DNA from: a virus
Length of the DNA stretch: 64,000 bases
Strand: one strand, 5' to 3'
Virus record (IMG/VR): IMGVR_UViG_3300030508_000018
Location: 1 to 64,000 of that record
Translations under genes and position numbers: made by a program
Shown: piece after piece, positions 2,581 to 50,394 of the stretch
Layout of the letters: each line of letters begins with the position of its first letter
How positions within the stretch are numbered: position 1 is the stretch's first letter
The notes under the pieces: model-generated
Database searches by the model: none
The model's input: only the letters and a program-made list of their open reading frames with translations
Told to the model about the DNA's origin: nothing

Positions 2581-4947
2581 TTACAATTGAATTCTTGGCT
2601 GGATGCGAACAAGCATTCGTGTTGAACTCAAAGCTTGTCCCACATTACAAACATACTGCCCAGCTGTTGAAGGAGGAGTTGCTGTAAGATTACCAGCAGT
2701 TGTAGCGCTTAAGAAATACTTAACGCCAAATGTCAAACCACCTGATGTACCTGCAATAGCATCCCATTGCGCTGTTGACGCCACGCACTCACCATCGGTT
2801 GCAATCAAACCAGAAGCTCCAGAAGCAATTCCGCTATAAGCAAGACCAACAACAGAAGACGTTGTGCCAGAAGCAGCGTTTGCCAGCATGAAAGTGCCAG
2901 AAGAATCAGAGTACACAGGACTGCAAATTGGAACAGACGCACCAACGTCATTCGTCAAAGTTGAAACCATTGTCGTTGCGTTAGTTGCTGTACCATTCAA
3001 TATCGGTGCAGTAACAGCAGCAAACGTTGGTGAGTTAGTTGTACCTAAACCAAGGTTAGTAGCAGCCCCAGTGGCTGTTGTAGACCCAGTACCGCCGTTA
3101 ATTACCGCGACAGTTCCAGATACATTACTAGCTGTAGTTGCAGTTGTCGCGTTACCAGTTAAAGCACCTGTAAACGTGGTAGCAGTAACTGCTGAGAAGG
3201 TTACTGAATTACCAGTGCCTAAACCAAGATTAGTAGCTGCAGCAGCAGCGGTAGTCCCGCCAGTACCACCATTTGCAATAGCCACTGTACCCGTTACACT
3301 ACCAGCAGTTGTAGCTGTCGAAGCATTGCCGGTTAATGCACCTACGAAAGTCGTTGATGTTACAGATGTTAAACCAGCAATTGTTGTTTGCGAAGCACCT
3401 AACGCGATAGACGTAGTGCCAATTGTAACGCTACTGTTAGTCAACGCTGCATTGCCGATACCAGAAAAGTTAGTACCCGTTAATGTTGGTGTCGTGCTGT
3501 AGGATGGAGTCGATCCACCAACTAACACGCCTGCTGCAGTTGCCAGCATTGCTGTAGTACCAGAACCAGTTTGATACGCGATCGAACCAGCAGCACCACC
3601 AACAATATTTGTAGCTGTAGTGGCAGTAGTAGCAGTAGACGCGTTACCTACGAGAGCACCGGTAAACGTAGTAGCAGTAACTGACGCATGCGTAACTGCA
3701 CTAGCTGTACCTAAACCTAAGGCAGTAGCAGCAGCTGCTGCTGTAGTAGCACCTGTACCACCATTAGCGATAGCTACAATACCAGTGACATTACCGGCAT
3801 TAGTGGCAGTAGTAGCGTTACCAGTAAGAGCACCTGTAAACGTGGTCGCTGTGACACCTGCAAACGTAGGTGTGCTCGCAGTAGTTAATCCAACAACGTC
3901 AGCTTGAGCGAGAGTAACAACACCTTGACGACCAGCTACAGACAAGACGACCGCAGCATCGCCCGGAATCAAATCCCAGACCACGCCATCAAACACGATT
4001 ATGTCGCCAACACTCCAGTTACTATTGCCATCAATGGCTGTAGTACCTGCCGTGCTAACCTTATACTCCCAGCCCTTAGTACCAACACCAGACGCTAAAG
4101 CAGGAATGTTTGTTGATGCATTCCACGTACCTTGATAAACTGTACCGCCCTGTGTAACAACAGAAGGCAATTGAGCAAGTGTTAAAGTACCGCCAGCTGT
4201 CAGGGTGGCAACACCACTAGCAGCACCAAGTAATGCATTACTGATTGGAGTATAGCCTAAAGCGGTTGTAACTTGCCCAGATGATAATGTTAACGCGCTC
4301 TGTGCTACAAAAGTAGGAGCACCAGTACCGCCACTCAGCGCAACATAACCCGCTGTGCCAGCTGCACTAGTTGCAGTAGCACCTACAGCAGTTTGGTACA
4401 CTAAACCACCAGCTACACCGCCCGCTATGTTTGTAGCCGTAGTCGCGGTAGTAGCATTCCCAGCCAATGCACCTGTAAACGTTGTTGCTGTAACACCTGC
4501 AAACGTAGGTGTACTAGCTGTGCCAAGACCTAATGCAGTAGCAGCAGCTGCTGCTGTAGTGGCTCCAGTGCCGCCGTTACCGATACCTACAACACCCGAC
4601 ACACTCACGGCAGTAGTTGCTGTGGTGGCGTTCCCGGCTAAGGCGCCTGTAAACGTAGTAGCTGTAACGCCTGTAAATGTAGGTGAACTACTTGTTGTTA
4701 ACCCACTAATATCTGCCTGGGCTAGTACCACCGCTCCAGTTCGACCAGCTACAGTCTGAACTGGAGCACCTGCTGATGTAATGTACGAGTTGGGGTTCGT
4801 TGCAGGGTATGCGCCTAATGCTGTTAATGCACCAGAAGCCGAGGTGGCTCCAGTACCACCGTATGGAATATCAATAAAATTACCAGATTGAATATTCGAC
4901 GCTTCGCCAGTTACTGGATTTAATACTAATGGCTTCTGACCTGACAT
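2581..4947 (-). CDS. Long modular tail fibre protein with tandem repeats
   Basis: A 788-residue protein made largely of repeated units of about 50 residues: SPTFxGVTATTFTGAL, GNATTATTA, then NGGTGATTAAAAATxLGLG, at least six times. A non-repeat island near residues 260-330 (SVVTQGGTVYQGTWNAS, then NWSVGDIIVFDGVVWDLIPG) resembles inserted modules in phage fibres. The N-terminus matches the neighbouring 272-aa gene. The C-terminus (GQYVCNVGQALSSTRMLVRI) matches the C-terminus of the 273-aa gene upstream. It is probably a fibre with swapped end modules. Shadow frames on the other strand arise from the biased composition. Confidence 0.8.
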   Translation of the reverse strand: MSGQKPLVLNPVTGEASNIQSGNFIDIPYGGTGATSASGALTALGAYPATNPNSYITSAGAPVQTVAGRTGAVVLAQADISGLTTSSSPTFTGVTATTFTGALAGNATTATTAVSVSGVVGIGNGGTGATTAAAAATALGLGTASTPTFAGVTATTFTGALAGNATTATTATNIAGGVAGGLVYQTAVGATATSAAGTAGYVALSGGTGAPTFVAQSALTLSSGQVTTALGYTPISNALLGAASGVATLTAGGTLTLAQLPSVVTQGGTVYQGTWNASTNIPALASGVGTKGWEYKVSTAGTTAIDGNSNWSVGDIIVFDGVVWDLIPGDAAVVLSVAGRQGVVTLAQADVVGLTTASTPTFAGVTATTFTGALTGNATTATNAGNVTGIVAIANGGTGATTAAAAATALGLGTASAVTHASVTATTFTGALVGNASTATTATTATNIVGGAAGSIAYQTGSGTTAMLATAAGVLVGGSTPSYSTTPTLTGTNFSGIGNAALTNSSVTIGTTSIALGASQTTIAGLTSVTSTTFVGALTGNASTATTAGSVTGTVAIANGGTGGTTAAAAATNLGLGTGNSVTFSAVTATTFTGALTGNATTATTASNVSGTVAVINGGTGSTTATGAATNLGLGTTNSPTFAAVTAPILNGTATNATTMVSTLTNDVGASVPICSPVYSDSSGTFMLANAASGTTSSVVGLAYSGIASGASGLIATDGECVASTAQWDAIAGTSGGLTFGVKYFLSATTAGNLTATPPSTAGQYVCNVGQALSSTRMLVRIQPRIQL

Positions 4948-4957
4948 GATTTATCCT

Positions 4958-5779
4958 CTATAGTTGTATAGGAGTGTTGATACGAATAATAAAAACTGTT
5001 GTACTTACTGCGCGACCAATGGGACAAACATACTGCCCGTTCCCTGTTGGCGGCACTGGGGTTAATCCGCCATCAACGATATCGAGAAAATAGTTTGTAT
5101 TTGGAATTAAACCACTCGGGTTATTAACAACAATGCTCCATTGTTCCACAGTACCATTAATTTGGCCATCAGATAAAACCTGACCACTGCCACCTGGTGT
5201 GATTGAATCAGATAAAACTAAACCTAATACCGTTTTCATGTTTGGGTCGTTCGCTACAGCAAGATCAACTGTTAACGTGCCTGGACTATAAACAGGTTGT
5301 CCTAAAAATAAAGTTTGAGAACCAATATTACTGACAGTGATGATTTCAATAGTCGGGTTAGTAACTCCAGCGGTCGTGTCAATAAGTTGCTGAATTTCAG
5401 CAGCAACTGTACTTAATGTTGCTTGTTCAGAAGCAACTAATGTAGCAGTAGCAGCAGCAAGATTTGCGTTATTAGTAGCGATGAGTTGTTGAATCTGAAC
5501 TTGCAAAGCAGCTTGACTGGTTTGTATTAACTGTTGAATTTGTGCAGCTAATGCTGACTCATTCGACGTTACGACATTGGCAAATGTTGGGTATGTCCCA
5601 CTAGCTACAGTTACGGTTTCTGTAGAACCACCATTTACAAATTGATGTGCTAATAAAACATCATTTTCAAACGTACTAATTGCTGTTGCCAATGCTGTAT
5701 TAACCACCGCTGGAGTAGGGACCTCTTCACACTCTGGCCGAACAACTTCGCTTTCATGTTCGTCGTTATGTTTTGACAT
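4958..5779 (-). CDS. Virion appendage protein sharing a fibre C-terminal module
   Basis: A 273-residue protein with a long helical Q/A/L-rich middle (AQIQQLIQTSQAALQVQ, then IQQLIATNNANLAAATATL, roughly residues 80-140), likely a trimeric coiled coil. It is followed by a C-terminal domain ending GQYVCPIGRAVSTTVFIIRI, closely related to the end of the 788-aa fibre next door. This suggests a fibre or fibre-connector with a shared capping module. The stop is TAG, directly ahead of the next gene. Function is inferred from architecture. Confidence 0.7.
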   Translation of the reverse strand: MSKHNDEHESEVVRPECEEVPTPAVVNTALATAISTFENDVLLAHQFVNGGSTETVTVASGTYPTFANVVTSNESALAAQIQQLIQTSQAALQVQIQQLIATNNANLAAATATLVASEQATLSTVAAEIQQLIDTTAGVTNPTIEIITVSNIGSQTLFLGQPVYSPGTLTVDLAVANDPNMKTVLGLVLSDSITPGGSGQVLSDGQINGTVEQWSIVVNNPSGLIPNTNYFLDIVDGGLTPVPPTGNGQYVCPIGRAVSTTVFIIRINTPIQL

Positions 5780-5789
5780 AGGTTTTCTC

Positions 5790-6287
5790 TTAGCTAGTTA
5801 AATAGTTATTATTTGGTAGTGTATTATTCATTAATGTGTGAAGACTACCTATGTTACTAGGTAAGCCAAATAATAATGTTATTGTTAAACTCCCTTCCCA
5901 TCCTAGTGAATCATGTTTAGCTTTCAAAATAACTGTTCTAATATCGCCGACATTCATATTTGATATAACAAAATCTTGCATATCTGTATCAAGCAAGAAC
6001 GCGTTCCTTGTCTCACTTATTACAGACGCAATAGATTCAATTGTGAACGGGGATTCTGATATTAGAGATAAACCAGAACCCATGGCTGATAACTGAATAC
6101 GATTATAGAAAACCTCAACCTGACCGATATACCCAGACTTAGGAACAGCTGTGACTGTTACTTTTGTATCCCATGACGGACCTACGTCTGGAATAGGATT
6201 AGAAAAGACAATCTGTTCTGCTGTTAATTGAGCACGTCTGGAATTTGCTGAATTAATTAAAGCAACAAGCTGGTCGATGATAGCCAT
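5790..6287 (-). CDS. Small virion protein, paralogue of its neighbour
   Basis: A 165-residue protein (MAIIDQLVALINSANSRR...). It shares layout with the 174-aa protein encoded just upstream: a short N-terminal helix, then a beta-rich region with a V-x-YNRIxL segment, an INSAxxI/SETRNAFLL helix, and a final hydrophobic strand. This pattern suggests gene duplication. It sits between fibre genes and the tail-type genes, so a baseplate or fibre-attachment role is plausible, but I do not recognise a named family. Confidence 0.6.
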   Translation of the reverse strand: MAIIDQLVALINSANSRRAQLTAEQIVFSNPIPDVGPSWDTKVTVTAVPKSGYIGQVEVFYNRIQLSAMGSGLSLISESPFTIESIASVISETRNAFLLDTDMQDFVISNMNVGDIRTVILKAKHDSLGWEGSLTITLLFGLPSNIGSLHTLMNNTLPNNNYLTS

Positions 6288-41707: not shown

Positions 41708-41986
41708 TTATCTTCTTTTAAAAGAGATAAAGAGCCATCCCAATAATCTTTTTCTGTTTGTGTTCGTTCTTCTTCTTCTGTTAAAAAAACAACACCATAA
41801 ACGACGTGCTGCTGTATCAGCTCGTGCTCTTAATGTATTCCTATTAAGATTAAGCTCTGTAGCAATTTCTTTCGTACTCGCGTTATTCAAAAACGCGAGT
41901 AGTACTTTCACGTTACGAAAAAAAGTTGGAAGTTCATAGATTCCAGTTTTACGAATTAACTCAGAAGGTGTGTATTGAATACTCAT
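41708..41986 (-). CDS. HTH-containing N-terminus of the frameshifted protein
   Basis: From the ATG at 41986 (behind GGAATTATC) the text MSIQYTPSELIRKTGIYELP leads to a helix-turn-helix-like segment (STKEIATELNLNRNTLRARA). After TAARR it becomes unlike protein (WCCFFNRRRRTNTNRKR). The +1 frame continues properly from a run of seven Ts (41783-41789). So a one-base length difference in the T-run separates this from the 41179-41604 part. Confidence 0.6.
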   Translation of the reverse strand: MSIQYTPSELIRKTGIYELPTFFRNVKVLLAFLNNASTKEIATELNLNRNTLRARADTAARRLWCCFFNRRRRTNTNRKRLLGWLFISFKRR

Positions 41987-42022
41987 GATAATTCCTTTTT
42001 TGTATTTAAAAACACAGAAAAT

Positions 42023-42052
42023 ACTCACTAACTCATCAGTAAGTTAGTGAGT
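42023..42052 (-). terminator. Terminator of the Tas-type gene
   Basis: ACTCACTAACT pairs with AGTTAGTGAGT around an 8-nt loop, 14 nt past the end of the 452-aa gene; the minus tail reads ATTTTCTGTGTTTTT. Confidence 0.8.
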
Positions 42053-42065
42053 CTAGTTTAGCTAT

Positions 42066-43424
42066 TTACGCTGCTTTCTTCGTGTGAATAATACCGAGCT
42101 TGCCTTCACTATATTCCGGCATTACTGGCAACCCAGCCGCTGTCTTTGCTGCGACGTAATAGTCCACCAAGAACCGTTTGATCATGTACCGTATTGCCAT
42201 GTTGTGACGATGACCATCTGTCTTATCTGCATGAGCTGGCATGTTTTCAATACGATTCTTGTAATCATAATAAAACCGACCATACACACTAGGCTCCGCA
42301 GAAACAACATGCCCTTTACTTTGCAAGAACGTCATTACCTGATCACCTTGCTTCTCGACACCTTTGCCCTTCGCTTGCACAAATCCTTCCTCCAACGCAA
42401 GCTTAAGCCGTAACGCAGCACCCAATTTCTTTCCGTCCACCAACGTCTTACCAGCACGCAAGAATGACGAACCAAGCACACCAATCAGTTTCGTTTTCAA
42501 AAACGGATTGAATGTGATGCTATCGCGCTCAGCTACATTACCTTCTTTATTTATGTATTCCTTTTTCACAAGACAGAATCCATGTCGACTACGACCGACG
42601 TTCTTTAGCACTAGCTGTTGGCCACTCGGTGCTTTCATTTGATATACTTCATTCGGATTGTTCATGCTTGTAACTGCACTACGTTCATCCCCAAGTTCTT
42701 CTTCAATCATCCGTGCTGGTACGGTATGTTCTTTTTTGTCTTCATCGACATACTGACCGATAGTAACAACATCGAGACCAGCATACTTGTGAATTGAAGA
42801 CGCATACTTCGGAATAGCGATGTCAATTTCGGATATCAATACACCAGACATAGCAGTACCTACACCATCTACATCTCTCAAGAAGTTGTCATAAAGTGGA
42901 ATGCCGGTCAAAGCACCTTCCAAATCACGGAATTGCTTTTCTTCTTGGGAAAGCATGCTGATATAAGCATGCACAAGAGTAAGTTCGCTATAGGTGCTAA
43001 TGATTTCACCAGGAACAAACTTATTCTTAGAAGGAAGCTTACCGTCAACAATAAGACTTTCTTCGACTTCGAGAGAAACGACATCTTTCTTAATGTCGCT
43101 TAACTCTTCTTCTTTGGTCACGCTTTTAGTTTTTTTGCCTTTCTGATTCTTTGCTTTAACGATTGCGGCAATTGGATCAGTAATACGTTTATAATCAGCA
43201 CGTAATTCGTCTAGCATTTTCTTGTCTTGTGCAGCTAAATCCTTTTCGGACATACCGTCTTGTTTCAAACCGAGCTTGGCTTTGAAGTTACCGGTGATTC
43301 TGTTACCCATTTGAATACGAACCTTTTGAAGGTCGTATGTTCCGCGCACAATTGTACGAATGGTATCGCGAATGGTGTATTCTTTTTGTGGCTTTGCTGA
43401 CGGCGTGATTACTGTGGTTTCCAT
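42066..43424 (-). CDS. tas: IS110/Nop-like Tas protein (TasA-type) of a TIGR system
   Basis: 452 residues, ATG behind AAAAGGAAATAAA. An N-terminal YDLQKVRIQMGNRI block (30-43) precedes a charged coiled coil. Residues 185-217 (DVDGVGTAMSGVLISEI, then KYASSIHKYAGL) match the Transposase_20/Nop-like core of IS110 proteins. The C-terminal part (TFNPFLKTKLIGVLGSSFLR, 304-323; FYYDYKNRI, 384-392; GHRHNMAIRYMIKRFL, 404-419) completes the pattern. There is no IS110 DEDD domain and no RuvC or HNH domain. Together with the adjacent 36-nt-period array, this fits a nuclease-less Tas protein of TIGR-Tas RNA-guided systems. It could alternatively be a domesticated IS110 transposase. Confidence 0.75.
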   Translation of the reverse strand: METTVITPSAKPQKEYTIRDTIRTIVRGTYDLQKVRIQMGNRITGNFKAKLGLKQDGMSEKDLAAQDKKMLDELRADYKRITDPIAAIVKAKNQKGKKTKSVTKEEELSDIKKDVVSLEVEESLIVDGKLPSKNKFVPGEIISTYSELTLVHAYISMLSQEEKQFRDLEGALTGIPLYDNFLRDVDGVGTAMSGVLISEIDIAIPKYASSIHKYAGLDVVTIGQYVDEDKKEHTVPARMIEEELGDERSAVTSMNNPNEVYQMKAPSGQQLVLKNVGRSRHGFCLVKKEYINKEGNVAERDSITFNPFLKTKLIGVLGSSFLRAGKTLVDGKKLGAALRLKLALEEGFVQAKGKGVEKQGDQVMTFLQSKGHVVSAEPSVYGRFYYDYKNRIENMPAHADKTDGHRHNMAIRYMIKRFLVDYYVAAKTAAGLPVMPEYSEGKLGIIHTKKAA

Positions 43425-43440
43425 TTTATTTCCTTTTAGA

Positions 43441-43485
43441 ATTATTAAAAATACTACGTTAAAAATTTTGGAGTTATCTCCAAAA
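43441..43485. promoter_or_regulatory. Leader between array and Tas-type gene
   Basis: 45 nt of AT-rich sequence between the array and the ribosome site of the 452-aa gene. It contains a short inverted repeat, AATTTTGGAG ... CTCCAAAA (about 43464-43484), which could be the end structure of the array RNA or a leader hairpin. No protein frame. Confidence 0.4.
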
Positions 43486-43665
43486 CTGATTCACTATTAC
43501 TCTACGGGTTACTAAATTTCACTGATACACTTCAACAAGTTGGTTTACTAGTGGTCGTTGATACACTTCACTCCCTTGGTTTACTTTCTTGTTGTGGTCC
43601 ACTATCTTTACTTGGTTTACTTTATGCGAGTGATTCAAATTACCATACTACACAACTGTGATATA
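43486..43665. repeat. TIGR-like array, five 36-nt units
   Basis: Plus-strand units start at 43486, 43522, 43558, 43594 and 43630, exactly 36 nt apart. Each is block A (9 nt), variable 9 nt, block B (9 nt), variable 9 nt. Block A: CTGATTCAC, CTGATACAC, TTGATACAC, GTGGTCCAC, GTGATTCAA. Block B: ACGGGTTAC, TTGGTTTAC three times, CTACACAAC. The variable 9-mers all differ: TATTACTCT/TAAATTTCA, TTCAACAAG/TAGTGGTCG, TTCACTCCC/TTTCTTGTT, TATCTTTAC/TTTATGCGA, ATTACCATA/TGTGATATA. The outer units are degenerate. Two alternating spacers per 36-nt unit is the TIGR layout, not CRISPR. The transcribed strand is not certain. Confidence 0.8.
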
Positions 43666-43696
43666 TGGCTATATTTATTTAGAATACGGCATAAAA

Positions 43697-43718
43697 CCAG
43701 ATGTGAATTCACATCTGG
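43697..43718 (-). terminator. Palindromic terminator
   Basis: CCAGATGTGA pairs with its complement TCACATCTGG around AT (22-nt palindrome), just after the TAG of the gene ending at 43721. The minus tail reads TTTTATGCCGTAT. It separates the upstream operon from the array. Confidence 0.8.
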
Positions 43719-43720
43719 CT

Positions 43721-44323
43721 CTAAGGCATTGAAGTTCTTACTTTATATTGTCTTTCCAATAACGAGACAGCGTTTTCTTTCACTACATTACTTCTGCTAT
43801 ACACTTCAATAAAATCATTCCAATCTAGATAGTCTAGCGCAGAACACAATAGCACATTACTCTTAATATAGTAACCTAAAATAGCTAATTGTTTCTTTCT
43901 TGACTGTCTCATGTCGTTCACAAATGAAACAGGATCAATATAGCCACATTGTCTATAATTCGATCCTAGCAACTGAAACATTCCCCATCTAGTAGACATT
44001 AACGCACATTCTTCATTAATGCTTTTAGCAATCGCTAAACTCCGATAATCATCTTCTACTGTACTATACTCACTAGGTCTTTCAGTGATTATATTTGGAA
44101 AACTATATTTCAATGTTTTCATTTCTGATTCTGTTTTATTACTAGATAAACAATAGTAAAACATATTACGTTCGAATTTAATAACACATGAATCATTACT
44201 TAGAAACCCATCATTCAGCGATAATACATCTACCAATGCTTTTGTGGCAGCCTGTGGAATAAACACTAAACGTGTTTTAAGTTCATCCGATAGAGCAAGA
44301 TAATCTTGACTAGTAAGTTCCAT
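43721..44323 (-). CDS. Hypothetical protein
   Basis: 200 residues from the ATG at 44323 (MELTSQDYLALSDELKTRLV), preferred because AAGGATAA lies just upstream; a longer frame to 44386 overlaps a terminator. Helical; no motif recognised. TAG stop, then the palindromic terminator. It is the gene next to the array on the far side, but nothing links it to the Tas-type gene functionally. Confidence 0.6.
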   Translation of the reverse strand: MELTSQDYLALSDELKTRLVFIPQAATKALVDVLSLNDGFLSNDSCVIKFERNMFYYCLSSNKTESEMKTLKYSFPNIITERPSEYSTVEDDYRSLAIAKSINEECALMSTRWGMFQLLGSNYRQCGYIDPVSFVNDMRQSRKKQLAILGYYIKSNVLLCSALDYLDWNDFIEVYSRSNVVKENAVSLLERQYKVRTSMP

Positions 44324-45453: not shown

Positions 45454-46998
45454 TTATTGACCAGTAACCACATCAGGAGTAACTTGTGTCGTAGTTTCGG
45501 TAGACACAGATGTGGTTGTTGTTGTGGTATCTGTTCCGTTGTCAACTACAGCAGTAGTAACAACAGGAGGAGGCAATGTCGCGACAGCTGCGGTAATAGA
45601 AGCAGCCACAGCATTAACAGACAAAGTAGGAGCAGCAGCAATAACAGCGTTCGTAATAACAGTCGAAGCTGCTACAGATGCGGACGGATCAGTGATAACT
45701 GGTGAAGCCGCTACGGCAGTAGTAACAGCATTTAACAGTACACTAGGATCAGCCACTACATCCGGTGCAGCGTTTACAATGGCCGATACACCAGCCGTTA
45801 CAGCAGCAACAGCGTTAGGATCTGTAATTGCCGGAGCACTGACAACAGTAACAGCTGCGGCTGTAACAGCACCGACTGTTGCTGCTGACGCATCAGGTGC
45901 AGTCGCAGCACTTGAAGTATCGACGATAGCAGCGACAGCAACACCTGGATCCGTAGGAGCTGAAGATGTTACAGCCGAAACAATTGCGTCTGTAGAAGCA
46001 GTGACTGGGGTAACAACAGGCACCACAGCGTCAGGAGTTGCAGGAGTAGTAACTGCTACAGGATCAGAAGCAGGCACCGCAGGAGCAGTACTTGCCACAG
46101 GAGCGCTAGCCGGGGCATCCACAGTAGCAGCTGGTTCTGTAGTGTCGACCACAACAGGAACGACAGCTGGAGTTGGATCAGCTACCACCGAAACGCTATC
46201 AGGTGCCGTAACTGCCACGGGTGCTGCTGACACTACGCTAGCATCGGGTGCGACTGCCACAGTAGGGTCTACTACAACTGGTGTAGCCGTAGCAGTGCTG
46301 TCAGTAGCTGATGGGTCAACAGTAGTAGTAACTGGTGCAGGCACCGACGAATCACTTGCAGGGGCTACAGGAGCCGTAGATGCTGGAGTAGATGCAGGTA
46401 CTGCCGGTGTCGTTGCTACTACTGGTGTGGCTGGTGCATCAGTAGTAGTGGTAGTCACAGGGTCGACAGCTGTGGTATCTGGAGCACTTGCGACCACATC
46501 TGCTACAACAGGAGCTACAGTGGTGTCAACTGTTGCAGCTGTGGTGTCAGTTACTGCTGGAGTAACAGCTGTTGTGGTATCGACCGGAGCAGTAGTGTCG
46601 GCAATGACTGCTGGCGCACTCGTGTCTACAGGAGCAGCTACAGTTGGATCTGGGGATACTACGGCAGGTGTAGTAACTGCGGCAGGTGTGGCCGGAGCAG
46701 CTGGGGCTGTAATCACAGCATCCGTAGCAGGAGACTGTGAATCACCGCTATCGAGAACAACAGGAGCCGTTACATCAGCTGGTGCTGCCGCAGGTGCAAC
46801 TGGTGCGGTATCGGTAACGACTACGGGTGCAGTTACTGGTGCTACATCAGCAGCCACAATCGTTTGAATTGTTTCACTAGTGACGGTAGTGGTGGTTGTG
46901 GTGTTTACGCCATCGTCGATTACTTTAGTATCGGTTGTTTGGATTGTTTCAGTTACAGTGCTTGCGCCGCTCAGTGGTGTTTGTGTAGAACCTGACAT
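45454..46998 (-). CDS. Entirely low-complexity A/V/T/P/D/S protein
   Basis: 514 residues made almost only of Ala, Val, Thr, Pro, Asp, Ser and Ile, with almost no basic or aromatic residues. Repeats such as VVADTTAPVDTTTAVTPAV run through the whole protein. The N-terminus (STVTETIQTTDTKVIDDGVN) and C-terminus (VVDNGTDTTTTTTSVSTETT) are related to each other. Start behind GGAGAAGC, TAA stop. It is clearly expressed-looking (one long frame) but has no fold signature. It may be a disordered matrix, linker or decoy protein. Opposite-strand open frames here are composition artefacts. Confidence 0.7.
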   Translation of the reverse strand: MSGSTQTPLSGASTVTETIQTTDTKVIDDGVNTTTTTTVTSETIQTIVAADVAPVTAPVVVTDTAPVAPAAAPADVTAPVVLDSGDSQSPATDAVITAPAAPATPAAVTTPAVVSPDPTVAAPVDTSAPAVIADTTAPVDTTTAVTPAVTDTTAATVDTTVAPVVADVVASAPDTTAVDPVTTTTTDAPATPVVATTPAVPASTPASTAPVAPASDSSVPAPVTTTVDPSATDSTATATPVVVDPTVAVAPDASVVSAAPVAVTAPDSVSVVADPTPAVVPVVVDTTEPAATVDAPASAPVASTAPAVPASDPVAVTTPATPDAVVPVVTPVTASTDAIVSAVTSSAPTDPGVAVAAIVDTSSAATAPDASAATVGAVTAAAVTVVSAPAITDPNAVAAVTAGVSAIVNAAPDVVADPSVLLNAVTTAVAASPVITDPSASVAASTVITNAVIAAAPTLSVNAVAASITAAVATLPPPVVTTAVVDNGTDTTTTTTSVSTETTTQVTPDVVTGQ

Positions 46999-47142: not shown

Positions 47143-48153
47143 TTATTGAGAGATAATATCTTTCTCAATTTTATAATCTTTAAATACCCCATTTTGTTTA
47201 TTCAACGCATAAAGAAGTCTCGGTGAATAAACATTAAAATACTTTGCTGCTTTAGTAATACTATCAAATCTTAAAATTTCATCTGATGTAGTTGATCTAA
47301 AAATAAGAGGCATTGATTCTCTTACTTTATCTGGTAAACTTCTTCTAGGTAAACTTCCTACCACATCTAACAATGGTTTGTCGTCGTATTTAAATATCCA
47401 ATCTTTAAATGGCGTTCCTTTTTCAGATCTCACATAATGAGTTTGTACTGATGAAAAAAATAAACCAAGTTCAGCGGCTAATCTTTCTAATGTATTACCA
47501 ATTACAATTCTTCCATCTTTTACATTAGTGGCATACCAAGCACCATACATTACATCCCATTTATTTTCTTCATGATCATTTGAATCTAAAAAAGGCCATG
47601 GGCTTCCATCGTCAAATTTAAAAACAAACCATTTTTTAGTAAGTGTCCCGGCAGACTTAGATCTTAAATGTCGAGTAAAACGCTTCACGCTTAAGTTAAA
47701 TTGTTTTGCACATTCAGTAATACTTGGAAATAACATAACACTATCATTAAGAATGTGTCTAGCCATTACTACTTTCTTATTCCATAGAAAATTTAAAATA
47801 GCGTGTTTACTATTTTCAGAAGGAGTGAGCCATTCGAAGTTAGTTAATGTGTTATTACTTTTATCGCCATCAATGTGAATAACTTCTAAATCTTCAAATT
47901 TTTTATCTAAATGTCGGTTTGGTCTACCTATAAATGTTAGAGCCATTAAACGATGAATATAATAGTTTAATGTAGATCCTTGAAAATTAATGCTTATTTT
48001 CCAATACGCATCATTTATAGGCCCTGGTTTTATAAACTTACCTGTTCGTAAGTTTATAAATTTACCATCCGGGCTAACAACAACTATATCGTTCCCAGGA
48101 ACATGATAAAAACCAGGATGTTCTTTACATTCTTTTGGTATTAATATTTCCAT
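47143..48153 (-). CDS. Free-standing HNH homing endonuclease
   Basis: 336 residues. An N-terminal NUMOD4-like part (HPGFYHVPGNDIVVVSPDGK) precedes the HNH core HRLMALTF, then EVIHIDGDKSNNTLTNFEWL and SENSKHAIL. Next come HTH-like repeats (LFPSITECAKQFNLSVKRF; RFDSITKAAKYFNVYSPRL). It is organised like the intron-encoded enzyme at 31.9 kb. It starts 75 nt after the RNAP-subunit gene stop, with its own promoter-like element at 48.18 kb. I see no group I core around it. Confidence 0.8.
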   Translation of the reverse strand: MEILIPKECKEHPGFYHVPGNDIVVVSPDGKFINLRTGKFIKPGPINDAYWKISINFQGSTLNYYIHRLMALTFIGRPNRHLDKKFEDLEVIHIDGDKSNNTLTNFEWLTPSENSKHAILNFLWNKKVVMARHILNDSVMLFPSITECAKQFNLSVKRFTRHLRSKSAGTLTKKWFVFKFDDGSPWPFLDSNDHEENKWDVMYGAWYATNVKDGRIVIGNTLERLAAELGLFFSSVQTHYVRSEKGTPFKDWIFKYDDKPLLDVVGSLPRRSLPDKVRESMPLIFRSTTSDEILRFDSITKAAKYFNVYSPRLLYALNKQNGVFKDYKIEKDIISQ

Positions 48154-48227: not shown

Positions 48228-49556
48228 TTAAAATATAGCAGTTTTAATATCCATTTCAGCTAACATTAGCCCTTTACTGTGCCCCGCGGACATAAATATA
48301 TTTAAGAAGATTGATCCGTACTCAGTGATAGCAGAAGATATACCTTTTGGACTAGCTGCAAGTCTATCCCCTACACAACATGAGCAGTAATCTGTTTTAT
48401 CTAGTTTACAATACATCGGACTACGTAACATTATCTTTTTACCAATATATGTTTTTGCTGTTTCTGCATCAGGCACACGAATACTACCAGATTCTGTCAC
48501 TACACTAAAACCAATTAACTTCTTGTATGTTTTATCTGTAGGTTTAATAACGTTTCCTAAACGACTACCGCAATCTTGGATCTTATCGGATACGACAATA
48601 TTAGATGATGCACGCATTAACCATTTTACCAATTCACCACCTAACATCGTGTTAGCGCCTCGGTTAAATGACCCTGCACGTAATGAATTATTCATAGCTG
48701 GGAAAGCACTGACGTCCCAACCTTCTTCTAGTGAGTTCTTAATAAGATCAACATTCACTTTTTCTTCTAGACCTACTTCAGCACCAAGCATGCCAAAGAG
48801 TTTCTTACGAACGATATTAAAGGCTTTATCCTTAATTAAGAAACCTTCGCCTTCATCACCTTTCAAATAAGCACGATCAAACTTTACTAGTTCTGCATCT
48901 ATTTTAGCAATAGTCGCGGGGTCATGTAAACGATCTTTATATTCTTCTATTAACTGCGCTTTAAAAGCAGCTATACCAGGTGCAGCGGTCATTGTTTTGC
49001 GCGTAGCAGCAGGTACGCACAATTGAGAAAATCCAGCTAAATAAAATAACGCATTTGTAAACTTCAAATACTCATCTACGTAAATTGCTGAACTAGGACC
49101 AGGTTGTTCACGATCGGTGTCATTTTCTGGAGTATCTCTAAGTCTATCGATAATAAGACTTTCTAACATTCCGGGTTTCCATTTTTGATAATTAATATAT
49201 GGAATTTTATTACCAAATGGATATACTAATACCGCGTAGTTAGCTAATAGGCGTCCATATGTCGTGTCAATTTCAACATCCAGATTAGGTACATCACCAG
49301 CACTAATAAGAAGATGTTCCTTTATGCCGTACAGAGGTTGTCCGGGGATGGCGTCTTCTACAATAGTCAATTGGTTATTATTGTTTGGGTCAACAAAGAA
49401 GTATCCGGTAGGCGTTGCTACTAAACGATACGCGTATGGTAGTTTAGTCCACGCTTCTTTATCTTCTTGTGTTAAACTAAACGCAGTGAATACCCAAGCC
49501 CTACGACGAAATTCTTCTTGTTTCATCGCAAGAAGAAACAATGTTCTCTTATCCAT
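48228..49556 (-). CDS. RNA polymerase beta'-like subunit (C-terminal part)
   Basis: 442 residues from the ATG at 49556 (GGAACACTC upstream). The C-terminal half carries beta'-type features: RGANTMLGGELVKWLMRASS, VVSDKIQDCGS (like the ...VVTEDDCGT region), RSPMYCKLDKTDYCSCCVGD with zinc-type cysteines, then ITEYGSIFLNIFMSAG, which corresponds to the AVGVIAAQSIGEPGTQ trigger-loop region. This matches the split beta' C-terminal subunits of phiKZ-type phage RNA polymerases. Virion or non-virion polymerase cannot be decided. The protein ends soon after the trigger-loop region. Confidence 0.7.
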   Translation of the reverse strand: MDKRTLFLLAMKQEEFRRRAWVFTAFSLTQEDKEAWTKLPYAYRLVATPTGYFFVDPNNNNQLTIVEDAIPGQPLYGIKEHLLISAGDVPNLDVEIDTTYGRLLANYAVLVYPFGNKIPYINYQKWKPGMLESLIIDRLRDTPENDTDREQPGPSSAIYVDEYLKFTNALFYLAGFSQLCVPAATRKTMTAAPGIAAFKAQLIEEYKDRLHDPATIAKIDAELVKFDRAYLKGDEGEGFLIKDKAFNIVRKKLFGMLGAEVGLEEKVNVDLIKNSLEEGWDVSAFPAMNNSLRAGSFNRGANTMLGGELVKWLMRASSNIVVSDKIQDCGSRLGNVIKPTDKTYKKLIGFSVVTESGSIRVPDAETAKTYIGKKIMLRSPMYCKLDKTDYCSCCVGDRLAASPKGISSAITEYGSIFLNIFMSAGHSKGLMLAEMDIKTAIF

Positions 49557-50394
49557 TTTGAGTGTTCCTTTGTAATTGAATCTGATAAGCAGAAACAATA
49601 TTCATAATTTTAGTAGTGTGCTCAATGCCGCTAATAAAGTTTTCTAAATTATCAATAATAATAGCTTGCGGATTATCACAACCGTCTTGACTAGCTAAGG
49701 CCATTGCATATAATTCTTGCGCAGCGTACTCAGGTGTCATTTCTTCTAACTTTCTACCGATCGTATTAGCGTATAGTAAGAAAGGATAACCAACGGTTAG
49801 GCCGTTATGGATTAAACCAACAATAGTTAATGCGGGGTTATTTGTTAGACTAATAAATTCTTTTAACGCATCAGTATGTTTCTTATTTATTGCACGTACT
49901 TCGTCAGATATATCACCACCACATTCGGCTTCGATTAGATCTTTAATAAGCCCAATAACGCGATGTGTTACTGAGTGAATATATGGTAATATTTCATCTG
50001 CTGTCTTTGAAGTAACTAATGCAACAATCTCAGCAAATACTTCTTCAGGACTTTCATCTATTTGGATGGTACGTAAAAGCGCATCTTTATCATCATACAT
50101 CTGAACAATTGATAAAGCATTAATAAACATTGTACGAATTTGCATCGTAGCATCGTCGTTAATAAACACACCGTGTTCTTCTAATATTTGATGCTGGATA
50201 TTGTTTGTTAATAGGACGATTGATTGTACTGTAATACCAGCATCGACTAAATCATCTACCATTAGAATAGATTCAAAACCATCTTGGTAGTCGTCTTTAC
50301 CTATTTTATAAAAGGCTTTATGTGCATCTTCAATTGTTGTTTTTAATTCTGGTGTTACCGCACTAGCTAAGTAGTTAGACAATACATCAAACAT
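49549..50394 (-). CDS. Helical protein upstream of RNAP subunit
   Basis: 281 residues (MFDVLSNYLASAVTPELKTT...), all-helical, with acidic N-terminal half and no motif I recognise. Its TAA overlaps the start of the RNAP subunit gene by 8 nt, so the two are co-translated and may act together (for example as a polymerase-associated factor). That link is inferred from coupling only. Confidence 0.6.
   Translation of the reverse strand: MFDVLSNYLASAVTPELKTTIEDAHKAFYKIGKDDYQDGFESILMVDDLVDAGITVQSIVLLTNNIQHQILEEHGVFINDDATMQIRTMFINALSIVQMYDDKDALLRTIQIDESPEEVFAEIVALVTSKTADEILPYIHSVTHRVIGLIKDLIEAECGGDISDEVRAINKKHTDALKEFISLTNNPALTIVGLIHNGLTVGYPFLLYANTIGRKLEEMTPEYAAQELYAMALASQDGCDNPQAIIIDNLENFISGIEHTTKIMNIVSAYQIQLQRNTQNG

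Follow-up and report, generated by a model that had tools for sequence, protein, structure and literature searches.

A Tas protein beside a dual-repeat array

Analysis of a 64,000-nucleotide (nt) stretch of viral DNA (positions 1 to 64,000 of IMG/VR record IMGVR_UViG_3300030508_000018; hereafter the window) uncovered tasA, a gene for a protein of 452 amino acids (aa), next to a short array of alternating repeats and spacers that lies upstream of the gene on the same strand (Table 1). The pair is almost certainly a member of the TIGR-TasA systems (TIGR, tandem interspaced guide RNA).

Profile searches and structure prediction both place the 452-aa protein among the Tas proteins. The NCBIfam profile TIGR_Tas_endo matches it (3.3e-23; 82.8 bits, under a curated cut-off of 100) and matches all 30 aligned family members (best 1.3e-38), 21 of which also match transpos_IS110. 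Searching the PDB with the family profile returned only TasR (9mty, 3.9e-23) and TasH (21kl, 1.5e-14). An AlphaFold2 model computed with 30 relatives as input had a mean predicted local distance difference test score of 82.9; prediction from the single sequence (35.7) was not usable. Foldseek searches with this model placed only TasH and TasR chains at ranks 1-10 (probability 1.00), with lower-confidence matches below rank 10 to a box C/D ribonucleoprotein entry (3pla, 0.80) and to the IS110-type ISCro4 complex (9t56, 0.28).

In the predicted model the chain opens with a helix at residues 18-50 that corresponds to the Nop coiled coil. RuvC and HNH domains were found neither by Pfam nor in the family alignment or the model, and an N-terminal DEDD/catalytic domain of the IS110 transposase type was found in neither the alignment nor the model. 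Given a chain that begins with the Nop coiled coil and carries no RuvC or HNH, the protein is, by alignment and predicted fold, a Tas protein of the TasA type. Its sole Pfam match, Bud13, was rejected as spurious. The Nop core carries two inserts (about residues 219-276 and 325-379) that the jumbo-phage relatives share and most other relatives lack; a third, at about residues 86-130, occurs in this phage alone. An earlier note, made from the letters of the window, had described a Nop/IS110-related protein beside the array, assigned the pair to TIGR-Tas and the protein to the TasA type, and named fold prediction and Tas-family profiles as checks; profiles, fold and array agree with it on each count.

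Array anatomy and strand

The consensus edge repeat is AGUGUAUCA and the consensus loop repeat AGUAAACCA, separated by spacers of 9 + 9 nt. The earlier note had counted five exact 36-nt units, in which two conserved blocks of about 9 nt alternate with 9-nt variable segments. Both the period and the alternating pattern stand, but the array holds four complete units followed by a terminal edge, and the strand has to be reversed. The minus strand is taken as functional because 29 of the 33 relatives tested carry a 36-nt dual-repeat array, within a few kb of tas, that runs in the same direction as tas and has the same motifs; the blocks first given as CTGATACAC and TTGGTTTAC are thus the reverse complements of edge GTGTATCAG and loop GTAAACCAA. 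The earlier note had also named, as a result that would refute it, loss of the period in close relatives that retain the gene; these 29 arrays show that the period persists. Edge and loop have AGU..A.CA in common, of the box D/box C (UG...CCA) type, with UA instead of UG in box D of the loop repeat. The arrays of 29 related loci show this shared pattern too.

Table 1 Features of the tasA locus (window coordinates).
Feature	Coordinates	Strand	Basis
tasA, 452-aa Nop-domain Tas protein without nuclease domain	42066..43424	minus	open reading frame call, profiles, predicted fold
Shine-Dalgarno-like AGGA 5′ of the tasA ATG	43430..43435	minus	read from sequence
Terminator-like hairpin GUUUUGGAG-AUAA-CUCCAAAAU + U run, directly 3′ of array	43461..43486	minus	-9.1 kcal/mol, z -3.2
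Dual-repeat TIGR array: 5′-truncated edge, four 36-nt edge-A-loop-B units, terminal edge	43487..43639	minus	
Terminal edge repeat AGTGAATCA	43487..43495	minus	
Unit 4: edge AGTGTATCA, A GTGAAATTT, degenerate loop AGTAACCCG, B TAGAGTAAT	43496..43531	minus	
Unit 3: edge AGTGTATCA, A ACGACCACT, loop AGTAAACCA, B ACTTGTTGA	43532..43567	minus	
Unit 2: edge AGTGGACCA, A CAACAAGAA, loop AGTAAACCA, B AGGGAGTGA	43568..43603	minus	
Unit 1: truncated edge TTTGAATCA, A CTCGCATAA, loop AGTAAACCA, B AGTAAAGAT	43604..43639	minus	
Strong hairpin then TTTTA	43688..43727	minus	-21.6 kcal/mol, z -7

The hairpin directly 3′ of the array is weak and was missed by a mechanical terminator scan. The strong hairpin on the other side is likely the terminator of the upstream muramidase gene, and since it ends that gene, the array probably has its own promoter within 43640-43687. 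A 7-nt stretch of complementarity links spacer B of unit 3 (ACTTGTTGA) and spacer A of unit 2 (CAACAAGAA; window 43532-43594); it could be due to chance, or these guides could reach sites that overlap.

Period 36 by itself is weak evidence in this window, where repetitive low-complexity coding regions score higher and the array ranks only about 13th. An edge/loop model was therefore trained on the arrays of five relatives, leaving out the window array, and scanned across the whole 114-kb record. On the minus strand it scored 42-53 bits at 43567, 43603 and 43639 (top score 53.5); scores above 10 bits fell only on array starts of that strand, the best plus-strand score was -20, and the best across 20 Markov simulations, both strands, was -1.4. 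The same scan found no second array in the record. The idea of a chance repeat beside an IS110-like protein, with no guide system at all, draws on the unexceptional period score; it is refuted by the independent-model score of 53.5 bits against a simulation best of -1.4, and by relatives that show the same motifs on the same strand.

Relatives of the tas-array pair

A scan of viral contigs recovered 35 tas loci. The arrays of the relatives sit either upstream or downstream of tas, with AGYGNRYCA-like edge and AGNMANCCA-like loop repeats; no array was found near tas in L011, L026, L032 or L036. The tas match in L011 is interrupted by a stop or frameshift, and that in L036 is truncated at the contig end. 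Six jumbo-phage Tas proteins form one group in the tree (support 95 in the Shimodaira-Hasegawa-like approximate likelihood ratio test). Among named phages in the collection searched, the only tas match was in Salicola phage CGphi29, the published TasH source, and no relative of tas was found in the plasmids searched.

The most frequent TIGR array size given in the founding paper is 5-15 units (PMC12045711). Arrays in the jumbo-phage relatives L001 and L006-L010, on contigs of 172-315 kb, have between 25 and 58 units. The one with 58 (L001:3869-5958) belongs to a jumbo phage of 285 kb and lies upstream of its tasA; its repeats are quite variable and its unit length drifts by 1-2 nt. Set against such arrays, four units, the last with the degenerate loop AGTAACCCG, could be read as the remnant of a locus that is no longer active. 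We regard this as quite unlikely: the tasA frame is intact and retains all 49 columns invariant across 30 sequences, most units have undamaged edge and loop boxes, and the terminal edge and hairpin are present.

A chimallin-encoding jumbo phage

The record is a 114-kb fragment of a phage genome (G000). Many of its genes have matches in four larger genomes (G001, G002, G003 and G006; 243-315 kb), with identities mostly of 30-65%. Besides beta subunits of the phage multisubunit RNA polymerase (vRNAP), the record encodes chimallin (G000 79843-81705, L042:15843-17705; PDB 2e-33, PHROG nuclear shell protein 2.5e-90), and chimallin was found in all four related genomes. Judged from this gene content, the source is a chimallin-encoding (nucleus-forming, phiKZ-like, Chimalliviridae-type) jumbo phage, in keeping with the jumbo-phage setting suggested earlier. 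Among named phages, Burkholderia phage FLC9 comes nearest for two core proteins.

Synteny does not extend to the tas locus: in the four related genomes, the genes that flank it here on the muramidase side are about 74-129 kb away from tas. This differing neighbourhood, the kinship to IS110 seen in the transpos_IS110 matches and the DNA bending proposed by the authors of TasR would suit an aid to integration or recombination, in which RNA-guided DNA bending helps a phage recombinase, or a domesticated IS110-like element. We consider such a role highly improbable, as the DEDD transposase domain is not present and the array holds many different guides, not one bridge RNA; no search for mobile-element ends was made. 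Chimallin-encoding phages are, moreover, expected to be lytic.

Elsewhere in the window, a small open reading frame beyond tasA (41708-42028) has a weak sigma-70 region 4/helix-turn-helix match (E about 1e-3). Two genes from the muramidase lies a 514-aa low-complexity protein (45454-46998) with hardly any residues other than Ala, Val, Thr, Pro, Asp and Ser. An HNH/NUMOD homing-endonuclease-like gene (47143-48153), whose immediate neighbour codes for an RNA polymerase beta subunit (48228-49598), has a homologue at the equivalent place in G006 and is possibly a mobile intron or freestanding homing endonuclease.

Evolution of the arrays

The arrays of three jumbo-phage relatives (L006, L007 and L008; about 4300-5990), whose flanks are alignable, were compared unit by unit, with a matching tolerance of seven mismatches in 18. 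Each pair has 22-24 units in common, in the same order, with 10-21 units present on one side only, and new units mostly differ in both spacers. Turnover looks denser at the tas-proximal end. In the common units, spacers diverge by 5.0-5.9% and repeats by 9.7-11.4%, with 21-27% at tas third codon positions; repeats thus diverge more than retained spacers although they include near-invariant box positions. Between L006 and L007, retained spacers carry 21 substitutions in 416 positions and repeats 48 in 432 (Fisher p 0.0015), while tas carries 87 in 419 third positions, 8 at first and 2 at second positions. The spacer-repeat contrast is significant in all three pairs, which are not independent of one another (Fisher p 0.0015, 0.029 and 0.007), and the tolerance used means that selection bias in unit matching should be small. 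Five phages (L001 and L006-L009) carry identical copies of one unit, ATCTGCTCC/TTGTGATAG, even though the tas gene of L001 has only ~75% identity to those of the rest.

Low spacer divergence, one-sided units and the identity of this unit point, in these few genomes, to purifying selection on retained guides combined with turnover of whole units. We tentatively suggest, at somewhat less than even odds, that TIGR-TasA of nucleus-forming jumbo phages maintains a repertoire of dual guides that is under selection and evolves slowly, and that it serves as a phage-borne programmable repressor and not as an adaptive memory. Retained spacers would be nearly fixed and whole units gained and lost, as if the guides were directed at conserved host or competitor DNA.

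Proposed mechanism and search for targets

We put the probability that this is a TIGR-TasA locus of a nucleus-forming jumbo phage, acting by the mechanism outlined here, at roughly 0.85. The minus-strand array would be transcribed toward tasA, with transcription at least partly halted at the hairpin between array and gene. By analogy with published relatives, the transcript would be cut into four 36-nt guide RNAs (tigRNAs), each with a pair of 9-nt spacers set between box D/box C-like repeats, and a TasA dimer would bind each tigRNA in the way that box C/D Nop proteins bind their guide RNAs. The complex would then seek an 18-bp DNA site where spacers A and B pair with opposite strands. As TasA is without a nuclease, it most likely binds and blocks: it may act as a programmable roadblock or DNA bender, silencing a competing replicon or host genes at the level of transcription or replication, with no cutting. 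That such cleavage-free DNA binding and silencing is the main function seems to us probable, if with some reserve. The function of TasA, the origin of spacers and the turnover of arrays are left open in the founding paper (PMC12045711).

Several results weigh against this proposal. The profile score of the single protein falls short of the curated cut-off, the three insertions in the Nop core might alter function, and the window array has just four units, one with a degenerate loop repeat. Nor did the searches for targets yield a convincing site. These assumed the geometry A + N0-2 + reverse-complement(B), derived from published opposite-strand pairing and 3′ overhangs, together with three other geometries. 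Jumbo-phage guides against the record itself, the four related genomes and part of G005 gave 54 matches with up to two mismatches and 40 for re-paired controls, which is unconvincing, and in the phage's own genome, at any offset of up to 120 bp between the spacer sites, nothing exceeded the control. For 527 distinct guide pairs in 1.66 Mb of phage DNA, no target emerged beyond paired controls (0, 8 and 121 matches at 0, 1 and 2 mismatches; controls 0/7/125 and 0/3/124). Exact 18-mer scans of viral contigs with the four window guides and two conserved guides returned 0-9 matches each, scattered or multiple copies of one virus; in the unit 3 query the last base of the reverse-complemented spacer B was dropped. 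A match of window unit 2 in a terminase-like gene of one virus was treated as chance. The most conserved guide, searched exactly against genome contigs, gave 18 matches in unrelated taxa, about chance level. The real targets may lie outside the collections searched.

The guides might instead act on RNA, with the Nop dimer and its dual guides pairing with host or phage RNA and blocking it or recruiting a modifier. The resemblance of the fold to box C/D Nop5, the want of a nuclease in TasA and 9-nt guides as short as those of small nucleolar RNAs would fit such a role. Spacers showed no clustered matches to E. coli 16S/23S/5S ribosomal RNA. Exact antisense matches to ribosomal RNA across all arrays numbered 24 against 11.9 in shuffles, but they fell at scattered sites, were not reproduced at one mismatch and showed no excess in the jumbo-phage set. 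Published TasR, as described in the main text of the founding paper, cleaves no RNA (PMC12045711). We judge an RNA target unlikely.

In the literature searched, chimallin-encoding phages are not paired with TIGR-Tas, a prior listing in the founding paper's supplement being possible. A clade of such phages, with arrays of 4 to 58 units and in some cases about half of the guides in common, makes unit gain and loss, the selected units and what the guides hit testable. These phages shield their DNA in a protein nucleus, which also raises the question of where a DNA-binding guide system of theirs would act: on phage DNA within the nucleus, or outside it on the DNA of hosts or rivals.

Comparison with known systems

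The locus shares with box C/D small nucleolar ribonucleoproteins the Nop fold of Nop5/Nop56 and dual guides bounded by C and D boxes. It differs in having tigRNAs in a tight array and no kink-turn guide RNA; neither L7Ae nor fibrillarin was seen, though a fibrillarin-like partner was not searched for. With the IS110 bridge-RNA recombinases it has the Transposase_20/Nop-type RNA-binding core in common, but it has no DEDD domain and offers many short dual guides where IS110 uses one two-loop bridge RNA. TasR (9mty) and TasH (21kl, 9vzx, 9w04) are closer, with the same Nop fold and profile match and the same box D ‘UG’ and box C ‘CCA’-like repeat ends, but they carry an N-terminal RuvC or HNH domain that the tasA protein is without.

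Published TIGR-TasA differs in three respects. The protein here is 452 aa long, a length due to the inserts in the Nop core, whereas other jumbo-phage members have about 414-419 aa and most other relatives about 290 aa; the array has only four units; and the host genome is that of a chimallin-encoding jumbo phage, a setting absent from the main text of the founding paper (PMC12045711). In the features described there for FpTasA and its relatives (Faure et al. 2025, PMC12045711), the locus agrees with them: a solo, phage-borne Nop-domain effector without nuclease, 36-nt edge-A-loop-B units with 9-nt spacers in an array adjoining the gene, a 5′-truncated first edge, and a terminal edge followed by a terminator-like hairpin.
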